In this document: positions 198-43,169 of the stretch, piece after piece
How positions within the stretch are numbered: the first letter of the stretch is position 1
Layout of the letters: every line of letters begins with the position of its first letter
Translations under genes and position numbers: made by a program
Origin: Nanobdellota archaeon
GTDB lineage: Archaea; Nanobdellota; Nanobdellia; Parvarchaeales; Parvarchaeaceae
Assembly (NCBI GenBank): GCA_021794235.1
Contig: JAJYRE010000002.1
Coordinates: 1-43,169 of the forward strand
Direction of reading: 5' to 3'
Length of the DNA: 43,169 bases
The notes under the pieces: model-generated
The model's input: the letters and a program-made list of their open reading frames with translations, nothing else
Told to the model about the DNA's origin: nothing
Databases searched by the model: none

Positions 198-1178
198 ATG
201 TATAAACCATTTTTTATTTTAATGCCGCTATTACTGGCCATACTGCTACTATCGACAGGGGTTGCTCACGCTTTTGTCTATTCGGATATACAGATAATGA
301 GCAATATAACACAGACCCATTCGCAGATATCAGTCTCATCGGTAGAATATATCGCTACTTTCTACAATCTGTCTGGAAACGTGCTTAATATCAGTTTTCC
401 CTCGGCCATAGAAAACCTGAAGCTAGTCGGGGGTGCGACTAAGGCCGATATACTGCCATTCAACGCGTGTAGCACCTTTTCACCCAACACTCATTGTACG
501 TTAGTAGAGGTTTATGGAGTACAGAACGGCGTACCGGTGTCATTTACCTATAATTTTAACGAAACCTACCCGGTGGGTTCAAGCTATTTCAATACTACAC
601 TTTACTTTTTACCACCTTCATTCACCAGATCCCTTTCAATAAAAGTTTCTCTTCCCAACGGCGCTTTCCTGCCTTCGAGTCCTTACTACGCACCGTCTAT
701 ATCCTCTTTTTACATACGGAACGGTCAGGTTTCAGCCACCTGGGTCCTGGCTAATCAGACATTCTCAAACAATCAGAATTTTTACATAGAACTGCCGTTT
801 ACAATCGAATATTCCGGCAATTTTTCCGCTAAGAGCGTTAATACCCTAAGTGATGCCCCGTTTCTAATCGGGATCCTAGCTAGTGTGGCAGTAATCGCGA
901 TAAGTGCGGTACTAGTTCTAATCAGGCGCAGAAAGGCAAATTCATCAAAGAAAAAATCAACAAACCACAAGAATAATCTCTTCACGAAACTACTAAGCGA
1001 TGACGAGAAAAAGGTCCTGAACTCCATAAGCGGAGTACGCTATACCCCCCAGTCTGCTGTTATAAGTGCGACTGGTTTCTCGAAAGTAAAAGTTAGTAAG
1101 ATACTATCCAAATTGGTAAAATACAGACTCGTAAAACTGAAATCAAATGGACGGCAGAACCTGCTCAGAAGATCTTAA
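198..1178 (+). CDS. Membrane-anchored protein with signal peptide, extracytoplasmic domain, one TM helix and C-terminal cytoplasmic winged-helix (wHTH) domain
   Basis: N-terminal signal-like FFILMPLLLAILLLSTGVAHA; TM IGILASVAVIAISAVLVLI followed by RRRK; C-term LLSDDEKKVLNSISGVRYTPQSAVISATGFSKVKVSKILSKLVKYRLVKLKSNGRQNLL resembles archaeal membrane wHTH regulators. Confidence 0.75.
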   Translation: MYKPFFILMPLLLAILLLSTGVAHAFVYSDIQIMSNITQTHSQISVSSVEYIATFYNLSGNVLNISFPSAIENLKLVGGATKADILPFNACSTFSPNTHCTLVEVYGVQNGVPVSFTYNFNETYPVGSSYFNTTLYFLPPSFTRSLSIKVSLPNGAFLPSSPYYAPSISSFYIRNGQVSATWVLANQTFSNNQNFYIELPFTIEYSGNFSAKSVNTLSDAPFLIGILASVAVIAISAVLVLIRRRKANSSKKKSTNHKNNLFTKLLSDDEKKVLNSISGVRYTPQSAVISATGFSKVKVSKILSKLVKYRLVKLKSNGRQNLLRRS

Positions 1179-1180
1179 TT

Positions 1181-1516
1181 ATGCTTAACAAGATGAAGGG
1201 ATATAGGGCTGAAAGAAAGGTGAAGCTTTTGCTTACCGAGGTGGGCTGGAAAGTCGTAAGAGCAGGGGGCAGCCTGGGTGAATATGATCTTATAGCATTC
1301 AAGGAAGGTTCCTGTATCTTCTTTCAGATAAAATCTACAAAAAAGAGCAAGTTCTACTATTACGGATACATGCAGGATACATACGAGGGGTTCCCCTTTA
1401 GGTTGGTCGTTGATTTTGGGAGGAACAACATCAGAATTTCTGAGCCGAGAAAGATGTTCGGACCCTCCGATGGGCAGAATTTCCATGAATTTCTGAATGG
1501 AAACAGTTTCCAATAG
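1181..1516 (+). CDS. Holliday junction resolvase Hjc-like / PD-(D/E)XK nuclease
   Basis: YRAERKVKLLLTEVGWKVVRAGGSLGEYDLIAFKEGSCIFFQIKSTKK matches the E...G..VVR..GS...D......(E/Q)xK pattern of archaeal Hjc-type nucleases. Confidence 0.7.
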   Translation: MLNKMKGYRAERKVKLLLTEVGWKVVRAGGSLGEYDLIAFKEGSCIFFQIKSTKKSKFYYYGYMQDTYEGFPFRLVVDFGRNNIRISEPRKMFGPSDGQNFHEFLNGNSFQ

Positions 1517-1573
1517 TTTCTAACAAATATTTTAATAGCATTAATTTTTACATATTCTTAGAAAATTAGAAAA

Positions 1574-1620
1574 AATTAAAGGCAGTTTTCGTTACTCGGA
1601 CTCGAGAACTGCCTTTAATT
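1574..1620. terminator. Long perfect hairpin between convergent genes (possible bidirectional terminator or structured RNA)
   Basis: AATTAAAGGCAGTT (1574-1587) is the exact reverse complement of AACTGCCTTTAATT (1607-1620); the stem extends further as TTCG/CGAG-type pairing with one G-U. Confidence 0.6.
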
Positions 1621-1631
1621 ATTAATTTTCC

Positions 1632-1814
1632 TTACCCGAATGCTATTCTAAGACCTATTACTATAACAATCAATACAACACCAAGTGCTATGACTACCTT
1701 GGGTTTTACGGTTATTTTACTCTTGTAATCGGCATAGTACTGCACCAATCCACCAAAAGAGGATGGCATTCTTGCTTGGCCTTTGTTGTTTAACATAATT
1801 TTATCTATGCTCAT
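1632..1814 (-). CDS. secG: Preprotein translocase subunit Sec61-beta (SecG)
   Basis: MPSSFGGLVQYYADYKSKITVKPKVVIALGVVLIVIVIGLRI: conserved archaeal Sec61-beta pattern and single C-terminal TM. Confidence 0.85.
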   Translation of the reverse strand: MSIDKIMLNNKGQARMPSSFGGLVQYYADYKSKITVKPKVVIALGVVLIVIVIGLRIAFG

Positions 1815-2350
1815 GCCTTGTTATTAAAACTTTCTATATGTGTTATATCCTTAAGATTCGGGCCGGTTTCTTTCGGCTTTGCTACGCTGTCAAGACTGGG
1901 GTATCCTATAGGTATAACGCCCCTTACAAGGTATCCTCCAGGTATGTTCAGCAGCTTCTTTACAGCGTCCTGTTGGACGGTGGCTATCCATGCACTTCCC
2001 AAACCAAGGTCCGTAGCATAAAGCAGTATGTTCTCTATCGCTAGGGACGCGTTCTCCACGCAGAAAGTCTGAGCGCTCTCAGAGTCGAATGCCCTGGTAA
2101 GCTTCTCCCTGTCGCACGCTACAACTATGATGAATGGGGCGGTCTCTATGTGGGGTGTAAGGCATATCCTGCTGAGTTCCAACTTCGTGGGTCTTTCAGT
2201 GACTACTACAAATTCATATTCGTGTATGCCACCAGCCGCGGGTGCGCTTTTGGCCGCTTCTAATATATCGATTATTATTTCGTCTTTTACCTGTTTTTCA
2301 AGAAACGAGAATACAGTCTTTCTGTTTGTTATAGCTTGACGGACGTCCAT
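1811..2350 (-). CDS. Nitroreductase family protein
   Basis: RKTVFSFLEKQVKDEIIIDILEAAKSAPAAGGIHEYEFVVV, ...NILLYATDLGLGSAWI..., IPIGYPS: nitroreductase/FMN-binding pattern; 4-bp overlap with secG. Confidence 0.85.
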   Translation of the reverse strand: MDVRQAITNRKTVFSFLEKQVKDEIIIDILEAAKSAPAAGGIHEYEFVVVTERPTKLELSRICLTPHIETAPFIIVVACDREKLTRAFDSESAQTFCVENASLAIENILLYATDLGLGSAWIATVQQDAVKKLLNIPGGYLVRGVIPIGYPSLDSVAKPKETGPNLKDITHIESFNNKA

Positions 2351-2374
2351 TACTATGTATGAAGCCAGCTTAAT

Positions 2375-2566
2375 TTAAGAATATCTCTCTACTATTTCTG
2401 CTTTTACTTCGGCCTTACCGCCCTTTGACTCTGCGAGAACCTCTTCGCATACCAAGCATTTTATAGTAGTAGCAGCATTTGCAAATATTACCTGTTCATT
2501 CTTGCACTTCTGGCACCTTACCTTTATGAACTTGCTTTCAGCCGGTTTGAATATTATCTCATCCAT
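2375..2566 (-). CDS. rps27e: 30S ribosomal protein S27e
   Basis: FIKVRCQKCKNEQVIFANAATTIKCLVCEEVLAESKGGKAEV: S27e zinc ribbon (CxxC...CxxC). Confidence 0.9.
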   Translation of the reverse strand: MDEIIFKPAESKFIKVRCQKCKNEQVIFANAATTIKCLVCEEVLAESKGGKAEVKAEIVERYS

Positions 2567-2571
2567 ATTAT

Positions 2572-2865
2572 CTATTTGATTTCTAATTTCCTCGCTTTGT
2601 TTCCCCTATTTTGGGTTGTCATTTTACCGCATTTAGTGCATTTATACCTTATATCGTATCTCTTTGACTGCTTTACGCCAAGCCTCTTTGCGTGCTCAAA
2701 CATTGGGTATGGTGTGGATCCGTATCCGTGCTCTAGATTCCAGCCCTTTCTTCTACTACCCGCTGTAAGAGTACCTCTCTTTCCACCCTTCACCTGTACC
2801 ACTTTTTGGAGGGTGTGCTCCTTACAGAACTTACAATAGCGTTTTACTTGTGATGGTAACTTCAT
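2572..2865 (-). CDS. rpl44e: 50S ribosomal protein L44e
   Basis: RYCKFCKEHTLQKV...GSRRKGWNLEHGYGSTPYPMFEHAKRLGVKQSKRYDIRYKCTKCGK: L44e signature. Confidence 0.9.
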   Translation of the reverse strand: MKLPSQVKRYCKFCKEHTLQKVVQVKGGKRGTLTAGSRRKGWNLEHGYGSTPYPMFEHAKRLGVKQSKRYDIRYKCTKCGKMTTQNRGNKARKLEIK

Positions 2866-2954
2866 TTACTTTGATAAAAATATATACTATTTAACTCTTT
2901 CTATGGTCATTTACTCCGTCAATCAGTCTAAAAACCATCGAAACTGGGTACAGA

Positions 2955-2961
2955 TTTAAAT
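2955..2961 (+). promoter_or_regulatory. TATA-like box (TTTAAAT) upstream of the sedolisin gene
   Basis: TTTAAAT about 26 nt upstream of the ATG at 2982. Confidence 0.5.
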
Positions 2962-2981
2962 CATAGAGGCATTAAATTAAA

Positions 2982-5384
2982 ATGAAATTGTTGGCGGTTC
3001 TACCTGTACTGGTATTATTGTTTAGCCTTGGGACCGCTCATGCTGCGGTATCGTTGAACTTAAACCAAGTGCCTTTTCAAGGAAGCAGCTGCAGCTTTCT
3101 GTCCCCACAGCAGATACAGAGTGCATATGGTTTTAACCAGCTCTATAACACGGGAATAAACGGGAGCAGACAGAGTATAGCCATAATCGACGCGTACGGG
3201 GATCCAAACCTCCAGGTGGACATCAATTCATTCGACTATCAATACGGCCTGTCCCCGCTGACAGTGGGCTCCAACCTGATAGTTAAAACACCTTTAGGCA
3301 CGCCAACGTCACATTTCAATAACTGGACCGCTGAGACTGCACTGGATGTAGAAGTCGCACATTCACTAGCTCCGGGGGCAAAGATATACCTGGTATTAGC
3401 ACCTAATGAGAGCTCATTGTTCAACGCCATAAACTATACCGTGAATAATCTGCCAGTAAACACGATATCCATAAGCTGGGGCAGCTCAGAATTAGGGTAT
3501 TCCAGCTCGAGTATAAACTACTTCAATAGTATTTTTTCTGCTGCAGAACAGAAAGGCATAAACATGTTTGTAGCAACAGGCGATTCCGGTGCCTACAACT
3601 CCGCGAATTCCCTGAATGTAAATTTCCCCGCATCCAGTCCGAATGTTGTAGCGGTTGGAGGTACTACTCTCTCAGTTTCATCCTCGGGTTTATATGGGGG
3701 CGAAGTCGGGTGGAACGGTAGCGGCGGCGGCCAGAGCCAGTTCTTTCCAAGACCGTCATTCCAACCTTCTCTAAGCAATTATAGAATGATACCCGATGTG
3801 GCATTCAATGCCGGTAATCCGATTTGCATAGTCGTTAACCAATCGGCCAGAGGATATTATGGGACTAGCGTAGCGGCACCATCATGGGCGGCTATAGACG
3901 CCTTGATAAACCAGAAAGTCGGCGGTGACAAAGCGTTTCTTTTACCAAATCTGTATAAAACTTATTCCAGCTACGGCCAATTGGCGTTTAACAATATCAC
4001 GAGCGGATGCAACGGGCAGTACTGTGCGGATGGGAGCTACAATGAAGTTACGGGTCTTGGTTCACCAAAAGTATACCAGTTAGTACAGATAATATCAAAA
4101 TCCTCGTATAAACTAACATTTGATCCGTCTAGCCTGAACGCGGTGTTTAATGTAAACGGTATAAACTACACATCAAAAGTTTCTTTGAACTTTACTTACG
4201 GGGAAAAGATTTCATTAACCGCATACTCCAGCAGCTCAAAGAGCGTAGGAACCACCAATTTTACTTCTTTCTCCGGCCTGGTAAACACAAAAAACAGAGC
4301 AGTGTCGTTTTTCGTGAATAGCTCGGGAGTTGTGGACATAAACTATCTGGATTTCTTTGATGTTAACCTGAATGGTGTAGATGGTAATTCCAGCTCTTCT
4401 CGCATGATACCTGGGGGTAATACAGCTGAGATAAGTTCCCCGGCACGTGTGAATTACAGCAATGTACAATACACTCTTCTCGGTTTCAGAATAAACAATG
4501 GGCCCATAATATACTCAGATGGATACAACGTAAGCGTGTATGAGCCTATGAATATCAGTTTTATATGGAACAAAGCCTACAAAACGGATCTCTCGGTAAC
4601 CCCGGTCTCATCTCTGTCCGTAAACGTGTCATTTTCAACATTCGAGCCCTTATCGAACAACATCATCAAGACTACCTCTACTATCTCGGGCAATGAGGGG
4701 ATTTTTGCCGTGAATAACACTAATATATCTGTTTACAGTAATCCGCAGATAGTAGCAAACCATAGGTATGTTCTCCAAGATTTTAGTTTCAAAGCAAATC
4801 AGATAGGCGTATCAGCGAATTTCCTAGAAGAGAAGCCGCTCCACATAAATTTCTACTCGACGGATGGGAGCAGCATAACTCCCGGCGTTATGGAAGTCGG
4901 TTTCAACAATACTAACTACACTTACATCAACAGTACAACCGTGTGGGGCCCCTTATCCGGTAACTTTACTATAAATCGAATAATCTATAAGGGGGTACAG
5001 ATGTTCAGCCAGCCCATCGCCCTAAACTCCAGTGTGCGTAACCTTAGTCTTAGTCTGCCCGTCAGCAACGTAGTGGTATTTTTGTCGACTTATTTTGGGG
5101 TACCCGTAATAGGCGCCAATGTTAAATTACTGGTCGGCAACAGCACTTTTTCCAATTCTACCGGGTTATCAGGCAAGACGGTTTTCTATAATATCCCACA
5201 AGGGAAATTCAACTTAGGGATAACCGCCTACGGAGATACCTACACATTCAATGATTTAAGCTCAACCTCTCCAAATCTAGTGGTTTCACCCGCCCTATAT
5301 CAGCTGTACATACTGCTCGGAGTCGTGTTGGTAGTGCTCATTGGGTTGTTTTTGTTTGAAAAAATAAAACACCGTAAGAGATAG
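2982..5384 (+). CDS. Sedolisin-family (S53) serine-carboxyl protease, secreted with C-terminal membrane anchor
   Basis: Signal peptide; IAIIDAYGDPN; ETALDVEVAHSLAPGAKI (ExxxD catalytic motif); ATGDSGAYN (oxyanion Asp); YYGTSVAAPSWAA (catalytic Ser); C-term TM LYILLGVVLVVLIGLFLF + KIKHRKR. Confidence 0.88.
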   Translation: MKLLAVLPVLVLLFSLGTAHAAVSLNLNQVPFQGSSCSFLSPQQIQSAYGFNQLYNTGINGSRQSIAIIDAYGDPNLQVDINSFDYQYGLSPLTVGSNLIVKTPLGTPTSHFNNWTAETALDVEVAHSLAPGAKIYLVLAPNESSLFNAINYTVNNLPVNTISISWGSSELGYSSSSINYFNSIFSAAEQKGINMFVATGDSGAYNSANSLNVNFPASSPNVVAVGGTTLSVSSSGLYGGEVGWNGSGGGQSQFFPRPSFQPSLSNYRMIPDVAFNAGNPICIVVNQSARGYYGTSVAAPSWAAIDALINQKVGGDKAFLLPNLYKTYSSYGQLAFNNITSGCNGQYCADGSYNEVTGLGSPKVYQLVQIISKSSYKLTFDPSSLNAVFNVNGINYTSKVSLNFTYGEKISLTAYSSSSKSVGTTNFTSFSGLVNTKNRAVSFFVNSSGVVDINYLDFFDVNLNGVDGNSSSSRMIPGGNTAEISSPARVNYSNVQYTLLGFRINNGPIIYSDGYNVSVYEPMNISFIWNKAYKTDLSVTPVSSLSVNVSFSTFEPLSNNIIKTTSTISGNEGIFAVNNTNISVYSNPQIVANHRYVLQDFSFKANQIGVSANFLEEKPLHINFYSTDGSSITPGVMEVGFNNTNYTYINSTTVWGPLSGNFTINRIIYKGVQMFSQPIALNSSVRNLSLSLPVSNVVVFLSTYFGVPVIGANVKLLVGNSTFSNSTGLSGKTVFYNIPQGKFNLGITAYGDTYTFNDLSSTSPNLVVSPALYQLYILLGVVLVVLIGLFLFEKIKHRKR

Positions 5385-7665: not shown

Positions 7666-9758
7666 ACGACCCACAGAGTCAGAACAATGTGGACTTCGCG
7701 TATGATTATTATAAACCGGGTGATGTAGTATCCCAAGAGATATACACGAAGGATACCCAGGTAAGAGAAGAGCTCAAGTCGCTAGAGTATAAGATATTCA
7801 AGGAAAAGAACCCTTCATTCCTGTCAAAATTCATAGTGTTCGGCTCATCCACTATAGGAAGGGTCATAAAGTTTAATATCAACAGAGAGGATGAGAAGAA
7901 ACTCAATACTATACTGTACCTGCTGGGATACGACTTCGATGCCAGGCAACTATACGGTTTTTCTGTATTTACACTCGTCATGGGCTTTATCTTAGGACTT
8001 CCGCTTATATTGATAGGGCAGCTGCTTGCGGGCCTGGGTGTCATAGTCCTTGGCATCATGGGTCTTTTCGGCATACAGTATTTTCCGAAACAGCAGATGA
8101 GTGTCAGATTAAGTAAGGCATCGGGGGACTTGGTAACAGCCGTCCTGTATATGGTGATATTCATGCGCCAGACTCCAAACTTGGAGGGGGCGGTACAGTT
8201 CGCGTCAGATAACCTGAACAGCTACTTATCATTCGACCTGAAGAAACTCATATGGGACACCGCCGCTAGAAAATATTCCAACATAAAAGAAGCTCTGGAT
8301 GATTATTCAAAGAAGTGGATAAAAACCAGCCCCGCGTTTACTGATGCGATCTTCCTTATAGAAAGTTCAGTTTCTCAAGAGGACGAAGGCAGGAGGCTCG
8401 AGCTACTGGATGAAGCTTCGGACAGGATACTAAGCGGAACTTATAACTCTATGACTAAATACGCATCTTCGCTTAAGGAGCCGCTCAATACCATATACAT
8501 GCTTGGTATGGTCCTACCCGTTCTTGGACTGGTACTGGCTCCGATGATGATGGCTTTCGTAGCAGTCCCGGACTTCGGGATACTTCTGGCTCTTATGTAC
8601 GACATTGCACTGCCTCTTATGGTGTATTTTCTGATAAGAAACAAGCTTCTCACAAGGCCCAGCGGTTTCGGTGCGCCGGATTTCAGCAATATACCCAATC
8701 TGCCAAAACTAGGCACATTCAACCTGAAAATAGGTTCCATGAAAATGCAAGTTAACGCAATAATCCCGGCAGCTGCGGTTTTCGTGATTCTTCTATTGCC
8801 GGTTTACTTCCTATCCTCAGCCCTATTTACTTTTGGTCCAAGCCAGATATACGTGTCGATGTTCATAACCGCAGCAATAGGATTCTCCCTTTATGTTTAC
8901 TTTAAACTATCCGTCATACAGTTGAGAGAGAGCGAAGAGGAGCTGGTAAGCATAGAATCATCGTTCGGGGTGGCCTTATCCCAGATGGGATCATTCCTTT
9001 CGCAGGGCTATCCGGCAGAAGCGACTATTATAAAGGTAAGCGAGAACATGAAGGATACGCCGGTAGCTTCTTTCTTCCAGATTACGGTAAACAACATGAG
9101 GAAGCTGGGTATGTCCCTTCGTGATGCGTTCTTTAACAAACTCAACGGTTCAGTCAGATTTTTCCCTTCGCCGCTGATAATATCCGCAATAAGGATATTC
9201 ATAAGTTCGGCCGAGAAGAGTGTAGGCAACGCTTCATCCGCCGCTATGTACGTATCTAGGCACCTATCGAATCTGAGGAAGATAGAGGAACAGGTACGCT
9301 CCCTTCTGGAGGAAGTTACCTCCGGTATGCGTATTGAAGTCGGGCTTCTGAGCCCCGCTATGGCCGGTATAGTCGTCGGTCTGACAACCCTTATAGGGAC
9401 GGTATTAAGATCGCTTTCTAGCAGCATAAGCGCTATACAGACCGGTCTGTCCACAGGTTCCAGCGGTGGAAACGTTGCATCAGTAGTGCCATTCGCTTTT
9501 GGCCTGTTCAACCTCAGCGGGGGCGCTATACCCCTATACACTTTTCAGATAATAATAGGGATATACTTGGTGTCCCTGAGTATCATAATAGGATACGCGA
9601 TATCCACGATATCTCAGCCTGGAGATAAAATACTCATGAGAGAAAATATGGCATCTATGATTCTAATGGCTATGATACTCTACATACTTATCGCGTTTAT
9701 AGTCACACTGGTCTTTTCTTCAATCGGCGGGCTTGTAATAACTGCGACCCATCTTTAG
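7644..9758 (+). CDS. Type II secretion system F-domain membrane protein (TadC/FlaJ-like), two repeats
   Basis: 704 aa polytopic protein overlapping the ATPase gene by 22 bp; two hydrophobic T2SSF-like halves. Confidence 0.8.
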   Translation: MAKRTKVNDPQSQNNVDFAYDYYKPGDVVSQEIYTKDTQVREELKSLEYKIFKEKNPSFLSKFIVFGSSTIGRVIKFNINREDEKKLNTILYLLGYDFDARQLYGFSVFTLVMGFILGLPLILIGQLLAGLGVIVLGIMGLFGIQYFPKQQMSVRLSKASGDLVTAVLYMVIFMRQTPNLEGAVQFASDNLNSYLSFDLKKLIWDTAARKYSNIKEALDDYSKKWIKTSPAFTDAIFLIESSVSQEDEGRRLELLDEASDRILSGTYNSMTKYASSLKEPLNTIYMLGMVLPVLGLVLAPMMMAFVAVPDFGILLALMYDIALPLMVYFLIRNKLLTRPSGFGAPDFSNIPNLPKLGTFNLKIGSMKMQVNAIIPAAAVFVILLLPVYFLSSALFTFGPSQIYVSMFITAAIGFSLYVYFKLSVIQLRESEEELVSIESSFGVALSQMGSFLSQGYPAEATIIKVSENMKDTPVASFFQITVNNMRKLGMSLRDAFFNKLNGSVRFFPSPLIISAIRIFISSAEKSVGNASSAAMYVSRHLSNLRKIEEQVRSLLEEVTSGMRIEVGLLSPAMAGIVVGLTTLIGTVLRSLSSSISAIQTGLSTGSSGGNVASVVPFAFGLFNLSGGAIPLYTFQIIIGIYLVSLSIIIGYAISTISQPGDKILMRENMASMILMAMILYILIAFIVTLVFSSIGGLVITATHL

Positions 9759-10240
9759 ATGTTTGGGTTGTATATTATCTTTCCGGTTACTGGGTTGGTA
9801 AGTACGCTACCCGTAGAGATACTCTGCTGATTGAACGCGCCGTTGTAGAAAGTGTAGACTATCGACACTTTATTGTTAGAGCCGCTAAATGAGCCGGGGA
9901 CGGTGCATAATGTCTGCTCACCGGTGTAAAGAGTAGAATTCTGGCAAGTGTATACCGTCAGGTTAACAGAATTCACCAAGACGTACACCGAGGCTATATT
10001 TATTTTATGAGAAAGAGTATTTGCTACTATTATCTCAAGCACCGTATAGTTTGTAACCGCTGCTGTAACGGTTACTCCGCTGAAGCCGCTCAGTACAGTA
10101 TTGGGCAGCGAGCCGCGGCTGTTAAATATACCCAAACCGAACACTATCGCCAGTCCTATGACTATGATTGCGATGACCCATGCATAGGTCGTCAGATACT
10201 CGAGTGCCGATTGCGATCGTCTATTCATGCTTACGCTCAT
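9755..10240 (-). CDS. Archaeal type IV pilin-like protein with class III signal peptide
   Basis: MNRRSQSALEYLTTYAWVIAIIVIGLAIVFGLGIF: R/K-rich leader + QSALEYL + hydrophobic H-domain. Confidence 0.85.
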   Translation of the reverse strand: MSVSMNRRSQSALEYLTTYAWVIAIIVIGLAIVFGLGIFNSRGSLPNTVLSGFSGVTVTAAVTNYTVLEIIVANTLSHKINIASVYVLVNSVNLTVYTCQNSTLYTGEQTLCTVPGSFSGSNNKVSIVYTFYNGAFNQQSISTGSVLTNPVTGKIIYNPNI

Positions 10241-11075
10241 TAAGAGCGATTATATCGGTGGCTATTTTGGCAGCTAGGACTTCTGTAATCTTGTTATCGG
10301 GTTCAGGTTTGACTTCCGTTATATCCATGCCAACAAGTTCAGAATTGTTGACTATCGCGAACAAGTAATTCATCATATCTGTGTATAATAAACCATTCGG
10401 CTGTGGAGTTCCTACCGCCGGCGCTATAGAAACATCGAAAACATCCATGTCGATACTTATGTAAACTTTGCGGCCCTTTACCTTCTTTGTAATAATGTCA
10501 ATTGTCTGCTCTTTCTTCATCTCATCCATGTATATCACAGTGAGTTTTCTTTTTTTCATCTCGTCCTTCTCTTCCTTGCTCAGGCTTCTTATCCCTACTA
10601 ATGCAACGTCATTTCTCTGGTTTACCAGCCTAGAATTGCTCGCATGGTTAAGTGATACCCCGTACACCGCATCTTTAAAGTCGGCATGAGCATCGAATAT
10701 TACGAAAATAACATCGGGGTCAAATGCGCCCGACGCTCCATACGTCACAAGATGTTCGCCACCCAAGAGTATCGGCAACTTGCCGCTAGACAGGACGTCT
10801 GACACCGTACCTCTTATAGCTTCGAGAGCTTTTTCAGTATCCGGTGGTACCTCTATGTCATTAGTTGTGAATATTTTGTTTTTTATCTCGTAGTCCAGCT
10901 CGTTGTTGTAGTTTTCTATCGATCTTGATGCGTCTATTATCGACCTAGGTGCAAACTTTGTTCCCTTCAGGTAGGAGTTTGTCAGCTCCATAGGTACTGG
11001 AAGTACAACATATTTAGCGCTCTCAAATTCCACTACTTCCTCCAGGAACGAGTTGCTTCCTTCGTAAAATAACAT
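10221..11075 (-). CDS. speB: Agmatinase/arginase (ureohydrolase) family protein
   Basis: GGEHLVTYG, IFDAHADFKD, ISIDMDVFDVSIAPAVGTPQPNG: ureohydrolase metal-binding motifs. Confidence 0.85.
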   Translation of the reverse strand: MLFYEGSNSFLEEVVEFESAKYVVLPVPMELTNSYLKGTKFAPRSIIDASRSIENYNNELDYEIKNKIFTTNDIEVPPDTEKALEAIRGTVSDVLSSGKLPILLGGEHLVTYGASGAFDPDVIFVIFDAHADFKDAVYGVSLNHASNSRLVNQRNDVALVGIRSLSKEEKDEMKKRKLTVIYMDEMKKEQTIDIITKKVKGRKVYISIDMDVFDVSIAPAVGTPQPNGLLYTDMMNYLFAIVNNSELVGMDITEVKPEPDNKITEVLAAKIATDIIALNERKHE

Positions 11076-11113
11076 ATCTAATCTACATTTTTTGGGCTTA
11101 AATCTATTTTTGC

Positions 11114-12844
11114 TCAGTTCTTTAGTTTAACACTCTTCTGGTCCTTGAACATTTCTATTATATCTCTGACTGTATTGCAGTCCTCAGCCCTTTTGTCCTT
11201 TCTTATAAATGAAACGGCTCTGGGGAATCTGAGGGCATAGCCTGTGCCGTTCTCCAGCCCGGCGGTATGGGTGGGGCTCCTGGTTATTTCATCGGCTTTT
11301 AGCGTCAGTACATACTTTGGACTTACCCAGATATCCGGTTGAAGTATAGAATCGACCCTGGCTGGTTTATGTTCAACTCTTATATCGTCCAAAATTCTTT
11401 TTAACTCCTTAAACTGTTCCTCGCTGAATCCAGACCCTAGCTTTGTTATCGTTTTGAAGGTATCCGCCTTCTCGTCAAATACTCCCACTAAAAGCCCGCC
11501 GAGGCCAAAACTGGCCCTGATGCCTTTGCCCCTGTAGTACCCCAGTATCACTACATCGATAGTGTCCTCTAGCGCCGCCCCGTACGAGCGCTTCAATTTT
11601 ATCCACCCGAAATTTCTTGCTCCCGCTGAATAAGGCGCGTCTAGCTTCTTGGCTACAACACCTTCCAAGCCGTTGCTTACCGTGTCATCGAAAAATTTGG
11701 TCATCTCGCTCTCGCTGTCCGTTATAATCATCTTTGTTCTGGCTAGGCTGGAATTCTCTTCAAACAGCTTATCGAGTATCTCTCTGCGCTTTATAAACGG
11801 CTCGTTTATCAGGTCCTTGTCGTCCAAAAGCATTATATCGAAAACAAACAGCCTGAGCGGCAGGCTCTGCGCCTTTTCTTCCACACCATGCTTTCTTTTT
11901 CTTTGCATCGTTATCTGGAAAGGGTACAGCATGTTCGTGTTTTCATCGTATGTCAGCGCTTCACTGTCAAATATAAACCTCTTATGTTTTAGTTTTTTCA
12001 CGGCTTCAGCCACTTCCGGCATAAAGTGTGTTATGTCCTCCAGATTTCTCGAGAATATCTTTACCTTGTCCCCGTCTTTGTGCACCTGCGAACGGAACCC
12101 GTCAAACTTCTGGTCTACTGCGAACTTTCCGAGCTTTTTTACTATTTCGTGGACGCTGGGGAGCCTTTCTGCCAGAGCGGGTCTTATGGGCCTCATGACT
12201 TCTATCTTGAACCGACGTATCTTCTCCTCTCCTCCTTTGTAGAAAACTTCCGCTACGTATCCAAGATCAGAGCACAGGTTGAAAGCCCTCTCCAATTCTA
12301 ATTTAAACTTCCTATCACCGGTCTTGCTTTTTGAAAGCGCTTCCATAATCGTAGCTTCTCCTACACCGAGTCTAAGCTTGCCGAGTACAAAACGGATTAT
12401 GTACTTTGACTCAAGGCCGGATACTTCTTTTATGAGAGTTGCCAACGACTTTATCTTAAGTTCAACGCTTCCGTCTCCGGTTATTTTTGTTATATCGAAT
12501 ATCTTATTGTATACATGAGATAGAGACACCTCGGAGCCGGTGTTTTTTTTATTGTATTTTTCGGCAAGCTCGCCAAGGTCACCTTTCTTGCTGTATTCCT
12601 GGGAGAGCCCCTTCACGTCCACCGAATAAGCTTCCGCTATAGCTTTCTCCGCCACTTTGTCGGCTATTCCTAGCTGCACATTGTAAAAGGGAGGAAGCAG
12701 CTCCTCTTGTATAAAATACACGGCTTTGGCTATCTCTTCATTGTCAATATTCGAGAACATATCAGACAGAGTATCAAACATTTCCAGCCTTTTGGTAGTC
12801 TTCTCTAGTTTTAGCAGGTAATCGCAGAATTCGGCGAACTTCAT
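11114..12844 (-). CDS. lig: ATP-dependent DNA ligase
   Basis: Adenylation motif DQKFDGFRSQVHKDG; FDSEALTYD; EGVVAKKLDAPYSAGARNFGWIKLKR; archaeal/eukaryal ligase I architecture. Confidence 0.9.
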   Translation of the reverse strand: MKFAEFCDYLLKLEKTTKRLEMFDTLSDMFSNIDNEEIAKAVYFIQEELLPPFYNVQLGIADKVAEKAIAEAYSVDVKGLSQEYSKKGDLGELAEKYNKKNTGSEVSLSHVYNKIFDITKITGDGSVELKIKSLATLIKEVSGLESKYIIRFVLGKLRLGVGEATIMEALSKSKTGDRKFKLELERAFNLCSDLGYVAEVFYKGGEEKIRRFKIEVMRPIRPALAERLPSVHEIVKKLGKFAVDQKFDGFRSQVHKDGDKVKIFSRNLEDITHFMPEVAEAVKKLKHKRFIFDSEALTYDENTNMLYPFQITMQRKRKHGVEEKAQSLPLRLFVFDIMLLDDKDLINEPFIKRREILDKLFEENSSLARTKMIITDSESEMTKFFDDTVSNGLEGVVAKKLDAPYSAGARNFGWIKLKRSYGAALEDTIDVVILGYYRGKGIRASFGLGGLLVGVFDEKADTFKTITKLGSGFSEEQFKELKRILDDIRVEHKPARVDSILQPDIWVSPKYVLTLKADEITRSPTHTAGLENGTGYALRFPRAVSFIRKDKRAEDCNTVRDIIEMFKDQKSVKLKN

Positions 12845-13666: not shown

Positions 13667-14379
13667 AGCCCCCTCAGTATCGTGAAATCTACAGGAAACC
13701 CTGCCAATAGCGCCCTTAAATACAAGTCTACAAGGATTATCACAATAAGGCTTATGAATGCAAATTCTTCGTGGTATTTGTTCAGCATAGACTGTGCGTT
13801 AAAAAATCTCTTTCTGCCGGTGGGTTGGAGCGCGCAATCGAAGCACTTAACGTTCCCGCCTGCGAATATGTGCCTGAACGCATGGCACGAGAATGTCCAT
13901 AGCGTGAGCAGGAGCGCGTTAGTAAGAAGCAATAGACTGCCGAATCTTAAGACGAAGTTCCCGCTGTACGTAAGTGAAACATAGAAATCATAGTAGAAGA
14001 ACGGCAGGAGCGCAATTCCTGCGTATAGGAGATACCTGTGGAGGTTATTGAAGGCAAACAAGGTCGTTTCCCCGGAATATCCTCTGGAACTCGAGTCCTC
14101 ACGGACTACGCAGCTCTGCGGGTGGTTAAAGATGTGGCGGTAATAGTCTTTTCTGTACGCGTAGCAAGTTAGCCTGAATAATCCCGCTACCGGAACTACT
14201 AGTATCGTCGGCGAGTAGAACGGATCTATGTATCCTGAAAATTCTTTGACCGGGAACATAAAAAGAGCCCCGAGCGAGAATATAAGGATAAATATAAACG
14301 ACCAAAGCCTCCAGTTCGGTTCAAAGAGCTCTGGGATGAAGGATGCTATCCCTTTCTTCTGCGCTTTTTCCGTTTCCAC
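13663..14379 (-). CDS. sdhC: Succinate dehydrogenase membrane subunit (actinobacterial-type SdhC-like)
   Basis: VVPVAGLFRLTCYAYRKDYYRHIFNHPQSC..., FNNLHRYLLYAGI, LWTFSCHAFRHIFAGG: several membrane His; directly downstream of sdhAB. Confidence 0.75.
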   Translation of the reverse strand: METEKAQKKGIASFIPELFEPNWRLWSFIFILIFSLGALFMFPVKEFSGYIDPFYSPTILVVPVAGLFRLTCYAYRKDYYRHIFNHPQSCVVREDSSSRGYSGETTLFAFNNLHRYLLYAGIALLPFFYYDFYVSLTYSGNFVLRFGSLLLLTNALLLTLWTFSCHAFRHIFAGGNVKCFDCALQPTGRKRFFNAQSMLNKYHEEFAFISLIVIILVDLYLRALLAGFPVDFTILRGL

Positions 14380-15131
14380 TACTTTTTGCCCCCGAGTCCT
14401 TTTTTCAGTTTCTTGTATAAAATAGTAACAGGGTCGTAGTAGCTATCAACAACAGCTTCCTTTTCCTGGATTATTGCGTTGTCAGTTATAGCGATGTGTT
14501 CTGGGCAGACCGACTGGCAGCATTTAGTTATGTTGCAAAGTCCTACTCCCCCTTCAGTGTGGAGGAACTTAGTCCTGTCAACATCATCAAGCGGATGAAA
14601 ATCAAGTGAAGCCGTTTTTACCATAAACCGCGGACCTATATAATCCGACCTGTGTTCGCGTATAACGTGGCATACATCCTGGCACAAGAAGCATTCTATG
14701 CAGTTTCTGAACTCCCTCGACCTGCTAACATCAAGTGCGCTTATCTTCCAAGGCCTTTCAAGACCCTGTTTTTGCTTGAATGGGGGTATTTTCCTCGCGA
14801 TCTCCCAGTTGCTGGATACATCCGTGACTAGGTCTTTTACTATCGGAAAAGCTTTCATCGGTGAGACCTTAATCGTGTCTCCTAACGAATCAACCCTCGT
14901 CTTGCACAGCAGACTCGGCTTATTGTCTATCTCTGCGGCGCATGAACCGCATCTCGCCGCTTTACAGTTCCATCTTACAGCCACCGTAGGATCCAAATTG
15001 TTTTCTACATAGTGCACAGCATCCAATACAACCATTCCTTCCGTTACAGGAACCTTGAAATCCTGAAATTTTCCCTCCTTGTCCCTGCTCGGGTCAAATC
15101 TGTATATGCTGAGGGTTATTTCCTTAGTCAT
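14379..15131 (-). CDS. sdhB: Succinate dehydrogenase/fumarate reductase iron-sulfur subunit
   Basis: CKAARCGSCAAEIDNKPSLLC [2Fe-2S]; CIECFLCQDVC and CNITKCCQSVCP clusters. Confidence 0.92.
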   Translation of the reverse strand: MTKEITLSIYRFDPSRDKEGKFQDFKVPVTEGMVVLDAVHYVENNLDPTVAVRWNCKAARCGSCAAEIDNKPSLLCKTRVDSLGDTIKVSPMKAFPIVKDLVTDVSSNWEIARKIPPFKQKQGLERPWKISALDVSRSREFRNCIECFLCQDVCHVIREHRSDYIGPRFMVKTASLDFHPLDDVDRTKFLHTEGGVGLCNITKCCQSVCPEHIAITDNAIIQEKEAVVDSYYDPVTILYKKLKKGLGGKK

Positions 15132-16842
15132 ACTTCTCCTCCGGAAGAAGTTTTTTCAGGTAGTCTGGCATTTCTGGAGGTATAAAGAATGATGTTTTTA
15201 TCCCGTTCTGGTTTTTAGTAAACACAATGTTCTTGAGCCAGTTTCTGTCTTTTTTTGGATAGTCCTTTCTGTAATGTGCGCCCCTGCTTTCCTTTCGCAT
15301 TTTGGCACCGATGACCAAAAGCTCTGCTATCTGGCTCATGTTTTCAAGTTCCATGCACTGCAGGAACCCTGGATTGAAAACCATCCCCCCCGAAACGCCT
15401 ATATCCTTTATCCTGGACTGGATCTCCTTTATCTTTTTAATAGCCTTATCCAACCCCTCCTCATCTCTGACTATGCCCACATTTTCTGACATAGTCTTTC
15501 TGAGCTCTTCAGTCAACTTGTATGGATTTTCCGCATTTTCTTTTATGAACGATTTAACTCTCTGTATCTCTGACTCTATATCACGTGAGTCTATCCTTGA
15601 ATTGTTAACTGACGATATGTAGGCGGCTACGTTAGAGCCGGTGGTTTTTCCGAATACTAGTAAGTCGGCAAGGGAATTGCCACCCAGTCTGTTTGCACCG
15701 TGTACGCCCGTCGCGGCTTCCCCTATCGCAAACAACCCCTTCACACTGGACATGCCCGTGTTTGGGTCCACTTTTATTCCACCCATATAGTAGTGTACGG
15801 TGGGCGCCACTTCCATTTTCTCTTTTGTTATATCTACTCCGGCAAAGTCCATAAACTGTTCGTACATCCCGGGTAGTTTCTTCATTATGAACTGTGAACC
15901 CTTGTGTGAGATATCCAGGTAGACTCCTCCGTGCTCGGTCCCTCTCCCTTCGGTTATCTCCCTGTATATAGATCTTGCAACGACGTCCCGTGCGTCTAAC
16001 TCCTTTTTTTCCGGAGAGTATTTTAACATAAACCGTTCGCCCTTCGTGTTCAGAAGGACTCCCCCCTCCCCCCTTACCCCTTCTGTTACCAGCAGGCCCT
16101 TTACGCCGGGAGGCCAGACCATGCCGGTCGGATGGAACTGTATCATCTCCATATCCATCATTTCTGCACCCGCGTTGAATGCGAGTGCCAACCCGTCACC
16201 GGTGGTTTCCCAGGAGTTTGACGTGACTTCATATATACGTCCGCATCCGCCGGTGGCTATTATCGTGGCTTTGGATTCGAATACTGTAAACGTTCCCTTC
16301 TTCAGGTCGATTCCCAATGCACCCGTGACTTTTCCATCTTTCTCGAAAAGTTTTGTTATGAAAATCTCATCAAATACATTTACGTTTTCACTGTGTAGAA
16401 TTCTGTCCTCAAGTGTTCTGATAATCTCCAATCCTGTTTTGTCACCTACGTGGCAGAGTCTTCTGTACGTATGTGCTCCAAACGCCCTCTGCATTATCTT
16501 TTTCTCAGGTGTCCTATCGAAAAGGGCACCCATCTCCTCAAGTTCGAATACCCTGTCGGGGGCCTCCTTAGCCAGCCTCTCGGCAAATCTCCAGTCCGAT
16601 ATATACACCCCCTCGACCATCGTGTCCATGAAGTGTACTTCCCAGTTATCCTTTGGGTCGACGTCTCCTAAGGATGCAGCTATTCCGCCTTCCGCCATCA
16701 CCGTGTGTGCCTTGCCTAAAAGCGATTTGGAAACCACCGTTACATTCGCACCTTCTGCTACCGCCTGCTCTGCGGCTCTAAGTCCGGATCCTCCCGCGCC
16801 TATTACAAGAACGTCCGTCGTTATAGTTTTGAAATCTCCCAT
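15124..16842 (-). CDS. sdhA: Succinate dehydrogenase/fumarate reductase flavoprotein subunit
   Basis: VLVIGAGGSGLRAAEQA Rossmann; GKAHTVMAEGGIAASLG (flavin-attachment His region); QFHPTGM; GANRLGGNSLADLLVFG; ESRGAHYRKDYP. Confidence 0.95.
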   Translation of the reverse strand: MGDFKTITTDVLVIGAGGSGLRAAEQAVAEGANVTVVSKSLLGKAHTVMAEGGIAASLGDVDPKDNWEVHFMDTMVEGVYISDWRFAERLAKEAPDRVFELEEMGALFDRTPEKKIMQRAFGAHTYRRLCHVGDKTGLEIIRTLEDRILHSENVNVFDEIFITKLFEKDGKVTGALGIDLKKGTFTVFESKATIIATGGCGRIYEVTSNSWETTGDGLALAFNAGAEMMDMEMIQFHPTGMVWPPGVKGLLVTEGVRGEGGVLLNTKGERFMLKYSPEKKELDARDVVARSIYREITEGRGTEHGGVYLDISHKGSQFIMKKLPGMYEQFMDFAGVDITKEKMEVAPTVHYYMGGIKVDPNTGMSSVKGLFAIGEAATGVHGANRLGGNSLADLLVFGKTTGSNVAAYISSVNNSRIDSRDIESEIQRVKSFIKENAENPYKLTEELRKTMSENVGIVRDEEGLDKAIKKIKEIQSRIKDIGVSGGMVFNPGFLQCMELENMSQIAELLVIGAKMRKESRGAHYRKDYPKKDRNWLKNIVFTKNQNGIKTSFFIPPEMPDYLKKLLPEEKYD

Positions 16843-41218: not shown

Positions 41219-42286
41219 TCAAAAAAGTCCACTGTACAGATTACCCAACTTATCCGATACCGACTTACTCGAACACTCGAAAGTGTCCGCATAAGCTTTT
41301 TTCGTGTTTATGCTCCTCCATGCCTGCGAATCGAGCATATTTGTAAGCTCCCCGGCATCGCGGAACCGCAGCGTATTCCTGCTGGTTATCTCAGGGATTT
41401 CTGCCTTGGCGTAGGTTATGACCGGCACCCTGCATTTTTTGGCCTCCATTATAGGCATGCCGAAACCTTCTCTTGTGGAGGGGAATACAAAAACGTCAAA
41501 TGAGTTCAACACTTCTACAATGTCGTTTTCCGGTATAAATCCTAATGATCTGATGCGTTTGTCATTAGTTCTAAATTGCAATGGCTTACCGTAAAGCCTG
41601 AGCTCCAGGCTCGGATTTTTCGTTTTTTCAAACGCCTCTATCAATGTTTTGACATTTTTGTTTGGTGCGTGGTTGCTTATATGGCCTATAACTATCTTGT
41701 TTTTATCTTTTTTCACACCGAGTTTCTTAAACCGCTCGGGTATGATGGGGTAGATTACGATGCACTTTGATTTATCAACTCTGAAATCATCTGTAACGTC
41801 CCTCATCGTATTCTCACTAACGCAAACGACCTTATCCGCAACCTTCAACGCGCGTTTTATGTCATATTTTAACGGAACGCTCCAGAACCCCCTGAATATT
41901 CATTCCTGCGGCCTCAGGAGCATCGAGAGCCAGCTGCGTGAAAATGCCGTCATGTTCGAAGATACGGGTGCGGGCTTTGCTACGAAAGTGTCGTGTATTG
42001 AAACAACAACCTTCTTGCTTTTTATGAAATGGCGTAAACCTATGGCACCCGGATCCAAGAAATGCACCACGTCGAACGTGTCTTCTTTATCTCTGCTGAT
42101 TCTGTAAGCCAAGGATGAAAACACTTGTTTTATGGAGTCTAAACTGAAAGCATTGATGATTCTGATCGAAATCCCTTTGTTATATCTGGATAACGAGCTG
42201 CGCACCCTGAAGGAATACTCTGTCACACCCCTGCCGCTCTCCGCATTGCTGAAGTTACTAACCAATCCCACCCTCAGTTTTTTCAT
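41219..42286 (-). pseudogene. GT4-type glycosyltransferase split by a single in-frame TGA (or readthrough gene)
   Basis: Track ORFs 41900..42286 and 41219..41848 are in the same minus-strand frame. Continuous translation: ...SMLLRPQE*IFRGFWSVPLKYDIKRALKVADKVVCVSENTMRDV...; C-part has GHISNHAPNKNVKTLIEAFEKT and PSTREGFGMPIMEAKKCRVPVITY. Confidence 0.82.
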
Positions 42287-42450
42287 ATCTGAATGGAATT
42301 TACACAGGGCTTTCCAGCGCTAATTTGTCCAGGCATCCAAATGGTTCTCCTTTTTCCTTTATATATTGTGATGGAGGACGCCGCTAGTGTCCCTGCCCTA
42401 TGAAAACTTCGGCATTCTTAATAAATGGACCATAATTACGTAATCAAATA

Positions 42451-43169
42451 ATGGCTATAACGCCCGAAGAGCGTAAGAAATTATGTATAAAAAGAGTACT
42501 TTGTGGTATTAGGCAGAAAGCAATTAAAGAAGACAGAAAGATTAAGATTTATAGTAAAAAAACGTTATATCTACCAATGCAGCTCGTAATCGACAAGTAT
42601 GGTTCCATTATAAAGCGTAAAGAGAACGTATTTCAGGTAGTCAACGAAAATGAAAAGAAGGAATTCTCGGCCGACATTATAAGTCAGATAATGATAAGTT
42701 CTGGCGCTTCGATAAGCTCGGGAGTAATAAAACTCGCGATGGAGAAGGACATAGACATCGTCTATTTGAACAAATTCGGCACGCCGTATGCTAGGATATA
42801 TCCTTGTAAATTAGGCGGCACGACACTCACCAGACGCAAACAAGCGACACAATATTATTCTGAAAGGATAGCCGACGTGATAAAGGAAATAATAAGAGCT
42901 AAGATAAAGAATCAAATCGGTCTTTTAAGATTAGTCGAAAAAACTAGAGATAATGTCGATTTTTCTAATATAATAAATTCAATAAAGAGTGATTCTGAAG
43001 GGATAGACGAATTGAATGGCACTATAGACGACATACGTAATAAATTACTCGGAATAGAAGGATTCGCAAGTCAGAGTTATTGGGGCGCTTTGACTATAGT
43101 ATTTCCGTTCAAAGAAAGGCAACAAGAAGCTAAAGACATTTTTAATTCGACGCTCAATTATGGTTATGG
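42451..43169 (+). CDS. cas1: Cas1, CRISPR-associated integrase (3' end truncated by window edge)
   Basis: Manual translation of a stop-free frame running off the edge: MAITPEERKKLCIKRV...MQLVIDKYGSIIKRKENVFQVV...ADIISQIMISSGASISSGVIKLAMEKDIDIVYLNKFGTPYARIYPCKLGGTTLTRRKQATQYY...LLGIEGFASQSYWGAL...FNSTLNYGYG. The SISS..I.LA...I.IVFL...G.PYAR, EG.A...YW and LNYGYG motifs are diagnostic of Cas1. Confidence 0.93.
   Translation, partial: MAITPEERKKLCIKRVLCGIRQKAIKEDRKIKIYSKKTLYLPMQLVIDKYGSIIKRKENVFQVVNENEKKEFSADIISQIMISSGASISSGVIKLAMEKDIDIVYLNKFGTPYARIYPCKLGGTTLTRRKQATQYYSERIADVIKEIIRAKIKNQIGLLRLVEKTRDNVDFSNIINSIKSDSEGIDELNGTIDDIRNKLLGIEGFASQSYWGALTIVFPFKERQQEAKDIFNSTLNYGY

Follow-up and report, generated by a model that had tools for sequence, protein, structure and literature searches.

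A CRISPR cas1 gene, probably of the type V-F lineage, beside a casposase relic at a contig end in a Parvarchaeaceae archaeon

The window analyzed here is a stretch of 43,169 nt, which constitutes an entire contig (G000:C22) in the draft genome of an archaeon of the family Parvarchaeaceae (714,732 nt in 25 contigs, estimated 78% complete). The original prediction had placed a cas1 gene at its right-hand edge, in an ORF without a stop inside the window and in a host of the ARMAN/Parvarchaeota kind, and both of these descriptions held. The frame 42451-43167 is open and runs to the window end, where the contig itself ends, and thus the gene is cut by the end of the assembly. The features at this edge are as follows:

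41219 to 42286, minus strand: glycosyltransferase-like left neighbor in two ORFs (41219-41848 and 41900-42286), from the ORF list
42434 to 42560, plus strand: decayed casposase 3' end (C-terminal tail, residues ~365-406) with two single-base frameshifts, from DNA and protein matches
42561 to 42576, plus strand: junction between the relic and cas1, from alignment of upstream regions
42577 to 43169, plus strand: cas1, probably of the type V-F (Cas12f) adaptation clade, 5' 197 codons, from HMM, PDB and DNA homology and the tree
43057 to 43059, plus strand: catalytic Glu codon of the LLGIEG motif, residue 161, from alignment with V-F Cas1 proteins

The Cas1 models recommended as a check matched the part of the gene that is present far above their cut-offs: TIGR00287 with 1.1e-39 (136.4 bits; curated cut-off 71.7) and PF01867 with 4.5e-37 (126.4 bits; cut-off 22.3; model positions 1-196 of 283). 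The PADLOC Cas1b model also matched (8.2e-51), and the sole match in the PDB was the Cas1 structure 4N06 (4.8e-23). These matches agree with the claim of a true Cas1. All model and structure matches of the ORF began around residue 43. Homology to other cas1 genes begins at the corresponding place, with DNA matches to the cas1 fragments of genomes G016 and G028 starting from 42577 and 42587, and we therefore set the start of cas1 at the ATG at 42577. In the alignment, the Cas1 proteins of full-length relatives start at the same residue as the product of this ATG, and 197 of ~327 codons are present. Consequently, the proposed ORF from 42451 is cas1 from 42577 onward, and its first 126 nt (codons 1-42) belong to a casposase relic. 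On account of its frameshifts and casposase homology, this stretch (residues 1-42) was rejected as an N-terminal extension native to Cas1. The first metal-ligand Glu was found in the predicted EGFAS segment (LLGIEGFAS), and the positions of the catalytic His and Asp lie past the contig end. Compared to G016, the window gene shows 48 synonymous and 11 non-synonymous codon differences over 97 codons, indicating selection at the protein level during most of the divergence. We are nearly certain that 42577-43169 is the beginning of a real CRISPR cas1.

The last 38 nt of the contig occur nowhere else in the genome, and the missing C-terminal half of cas1 was found on no other contig, so neither route joined this end to a second contig of the genome. 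A viral or plasmid source of the gene was likewise rejected, as a scan of 2.9 million viral contigs detected no relatives at its level of sensitivity.

Upstream of cas1, residues 1-41 of the ORF matched the C-terminal ends of ~400-aa casposases from the same genus in a search of 32 genomes of the family. The DNA at 42434-42560 is ~82% identical to the intact casposase gene of G012, a genome of the same genus, and carries two one-base indels, a -1 and a +1; the protein match to casposase residues 365-406 was 64%. The local alignment scored 122, whereas none of 300 shuffles exceeded 32. Judged from its sequence, this stretch is a pseudogene that stands in frame with cas1 by chance. The casposase tail is followed by cas1 in the same orientation after ~17 bp. 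The upstream sequence common to the G016 and G028 cas1 fragments, gggatataaaat, is missing from this junction, which indicates that the junction between the relic and cas1 is secondary. On the left, a glycosyltransferase-like gene, interrupted into two ORFs, adjoins the relic. This neighborhood is not syntenic, and relatives gave scattered partial DNA matches only; the neighbor genes did not form a syntenic block from which an empty site could be read. Neither a tRNA nor a recognizable terminal repeat was found in the left flank of the relic.

Cas1 is believed to derive from a casposase, and the two were told apart by structure matching and phylogeny. The region 42577-43167 did not match the casposase structure 6OPM at 0.001. 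A tree was built from 17 Cas1 proteins of one taxonomic class; forcing the window Cas1 onto the casposases cost 14 log units (p-AU 0.04), and we rejected the Cas1 domain of the window as a casposase. The tree placed it with the V-F Cas1 proteins in one clade (support 98/96); bootstrap values of 73/77 do not separate a position within the sampled V-F sequences from one immediately next to them.

A search of 383 genomes of the class gave best full-length Cas1 matches with 43-48% identity over all 197 residues. In G035, G182, G191, G363, G136 and G148, cas2, cas4 and a gene for a protein of 528-843 aa come after cas1; PADLOC identified this protein as Cas12f (Cas14a or Cas14b) with E-values of 1e-40 to 1e-186. 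The arrangement cas1-cas2-cas4-Cas12f (type V-F) was thus found in all six close relatives with a readable locus and effector. Arrays lie beyond Cas12f in G035 (17 units) and G148 (18 units). The unusually long Cas12f of 843 aa is encoded in the cas1-cas2-cas4 operon of L122 (G191:C1) at 683-3214. The next-nearest Cas1 hits, with far weaker scores, came from loci read as I-B-, V-A- and III-like. The window Cas1 shares with the DPANN type V-F (Cas12f1/Cas14a, Cas14b) Cas1 proteins the motif IYPCxLGGTTLTR, the catalytic motif LLGxEG and a clade in common, and it very probably belongs to the V-F lineage. However, the window differs from DPANN type V-F loci in showing only the first 197 cas1 codons, with no cas2, cas4, effector or array in view, and in having the native upstream region of cas1 replaced by the casposase relic. 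Since no array was found and the adjoining DNA is unassembled, only the gene is assigned to the V-F Cas1 clade, and the locus is not filed as a V-F system. Both the subtype and the putative cargo status discussed below are argued from relatives, the contig ending before any cas2, cas4, effector, array and tRNA.

The genus has genuine family-2-like casposons. The G021 casposase matched the casposase structure of Methanosarcina mazei (6OPM) over its whole length (2.1e-75) and is set among PolB-like, HTH-like and HNH genes. The G021 element carries terminal inverted repeats (TIRs) of 224 nt that are 100% identical, and it lies at the 3' end of tRNA-Ser(CGA), flanked by the 14-bp direct repeat CCCTATTCTGATTG. 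This casposon, at 559-14096 of L021 (G021:C8:45000-64900), is complete and recent-looking. Family 2 casposons are characterized by a casposase with 60-70 extra C-terminal residues and by features as in G021 (PMC4046053, PMC6977970). Elements of this genus thus resemble those of M. mazei and Aciduliprofundum boonei in their tailed casposase, PolB, HNH, TIRs and 14-bp duplications at tRNA 3' ends. In contrast, the window keeps only the casposase tail, frameshifted, at 42434-42560, and the Cas1 next to it falls outside the casposases. PolB and casposase between TIRs with a target duplication, as seen in G021, were absent from the window, which therefore holds a casposon remnant and not a casposon. 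A further difference from the family 2 elements is that 5'-truncated casposase tails recur in this genus at tRNA-anchored cargo islands.

A second casposon was found at tRNA-Arg, at 3117-13643 of L018 (G012:C7:229595-249500). Another terminal repeat lies directly outside its left duplication, which suggests tandem insertion. In the genome of the window itself, at ~41759 of G000:C4 (L102), the casposon-end-like sequence ATTAGTCTCATTTTAGGTAGATAGCATTATCCCC stands beside an apparent tRNA-Arg 3' end; no casposase was found there, and the site is probably a casposon scar.

A whole-casposase query recovered 22 fragments besides two intact genes. Eighteen of them reached residue 396 or beyond, and the midpoint lay in the C-terminal half in 21. 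Eighteen tail-reaching fragments were never equaled in 200,000 random placements of the same lengths, although this test ignores the common ancestry of the fragments and is descriptive. Downstream sequence of 4 kb or more was readable for 15 casposases, intact or relic. In 12 of them, the casposase or tail is faced by a tRNA 3' end on the cargo side, located 1.2-9.4 kb past the casposase with cargo in between; a tRNA 5' end was met first in none. Type IIG and type III restriction systems are among the cargo, and cargo genes begin within tens of base pairs of the casposase tail.

Comparison of G012 and G013 showed 99% identity on both sides of a segment that is wholly different, extending from inside the tail to just before tRNA-Gln. 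The left identity breaks within the casposase tail, and this one case looks like homologous exchange, for which the tail would have supplied one arm and the tRNA side the other. In the two near-identical genomes represented by L019 (9932-14070) and L024 (9252-12979), the cargo that separates the casposase tail from tRNA-Gln is a type IIG restriction gene in one and a pair of unknown genes in the other. A tail-specific cut site of the integron type was considered but gained no support: the common right edge of the fragments is the 3' end of the gene and the identity of the strain pair breaks inside the tail. In L020 (G007:C43), 14042-15657 contains three copies of the casposase tail among cargo genes, together with an HNH gene and tRNA-Gln. 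When the tRNAs near contig ends of the window's own genome were searched for casposon-like repeats that could mark the unseen side, no convincing partner was found.

Considering the Cas1 identity, its V-F clade, the relic ~17 bp upstream and the genus-wide pattern of tail, cargo and tRNA, all of which were observed, our best explanation, which we hold to be fairly probable, is that a cas1 of the V-F lineage, broken off where the contig stops, occupies the cargo slot of a decayed casposon. A V-F cas1 would head a cas1-cas2-cas4-cas12f operon, and its product, going by the function of the family, would integrate protospacers beside the array leader. The transposition half of the casposon, namely the PolB side and most of the casposase, would be gone, and the casposase 3' end would stay as a relic. 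The cargo, consisting of cas1 and whatever follows, would head toward a predicted tRNA 3' end; the 3' end of a tRNA gene is the usual target of casposons. The other V-F operon genes, or what remains of them, would then lie to the right, together with the tRNA, and cas1 would have arrived or been retained as cargo. That cas1 was casposon cargo is a slightly less than even prospect, and the tail-cas1 junction is known from one instance only. The original prediction had treated a CRISPR cas1 and a casposon as alternatives; the gene is indeed a CRISPR-type cas1, and the casposon relic is physically joined to it instead of being an alternative to it.

The strongest competing explanation is that the gene is a dying remnant in a genus that has lost V-F, and that immediately beyond the assembled sequence it is broken or solo, lacking cas2, effector and array alike. 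Decay of this cas1 was observed in the genus, where the same gene is cut to ~114 codons in G016, ~107 in G028 and ~46 in G008, at unrelated sites with different neighborhoods. Moreover, none of the 32 family genomes gave a Cas2 match, and the absence of the common G016/G028 upstream sequence from the window points in the same direction. Matches for Cas4 and Cas12f in these genomes were unconvincing. The Cas12f model matched in 15 of the 32, but the matches were partial, in frames mostly of 400-440 aa that were TnpB-like, and the model matched control genomes as well; we rejected them as Cas12f. On the other hand, the window gene has 197 stop-free codons with the catalytic Glu and a strong synonymous bias relative to G016. 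As had been stated for the window, no array, cas2 or effector is present there, and none was found in the assembly: all 714,732 assembled bases lack a CRISPR array, cas2, cas4, Cas9 (model TIGR01865) and Cas12f, with the DNA to the right of cas1 falling outside the assembly. This absence is uninformative, because a V-F operon would fall exactly in the unassembled stretch; any system would continue to the right, as predicted, the gene being cut there. The chances of a complete V-F operon to the right of the contig end appear evenly balanced, and those of a dying remnant somewhat below that.

A rearrangement may instead have set an unrelated cas1 fragment beside the relic, in which case cas1 would never have been cargo of a casposon. 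Pieces of both genes occur in differing contexts across the genus, and the single instance of the junction and the left flank described above are consistent with accidental neighbors. However, the ~17-bp spacing and the orientation fit the cargo slot seen in 12 of 15 testable loci, cargo genes elsewhere begin similarly close to the tail, and we regard an accident as possible but rather doubtful. A chimeric contig, joining a relic and a cas1 from different organisms or sites, is improbable: the junction lies ~600 nt from the contig end of a draft genome and no second copy of it is known, but there was no positive sign of misassembly, and the closest relatives of cas1 (80%) and of the casposase both come from this same genus, a pattern that fits a single source genome.

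Type II-D is common in DPANN (PMC12669027), and Cas9 proteins of ~970 aa occur in two same-genus genomes out of the 32 of the family (967 aa in G004, L134 (G004:C14), 8574-11477; the second in L135 (G018:C13)), but the ARMAN-type Cas9 (type II-D) locus expected from the related host group is very improbable here, given that neither Cas9 genome has a Cas1 or Cas2 hit, no tested genome ties Cas9 to a window-type Cas1, the nearest Cas1 relatives stand in Cas12f loci, and the type II Cas1 model TIGR03639 scored worse (1.7e-12) than several other Cas1 models.

Returning to the preferred reading of a V-F-lineage cas1 at the cargo site of a degraded casposon, a more far-reaching version is that the casposon carries a module for CRISPR adaptation as its cargo, namely V-F cas1 and perhaps the entire operon, and that casposase 3' relics by tRNA genes serve as homology anchors for the exchange of defense cargo between strains. 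We consider this version unlikely. The literature searched, whose coverage was incomplete and which is weak evidence in this respect, contained no description of casposons in Parvarchaeota-type archaea or of a casposase relic followed by a CRISPR cas1. These data add a DPANN genus that harbors both casposons and CRISPR-type cas1, the two being in physical contact on one contig. They redirect the search for an effector toward the miniature Cas12f instead of Cas9, and provide a testable case for defense genes that may move with casposon remnants at tRNA genes.
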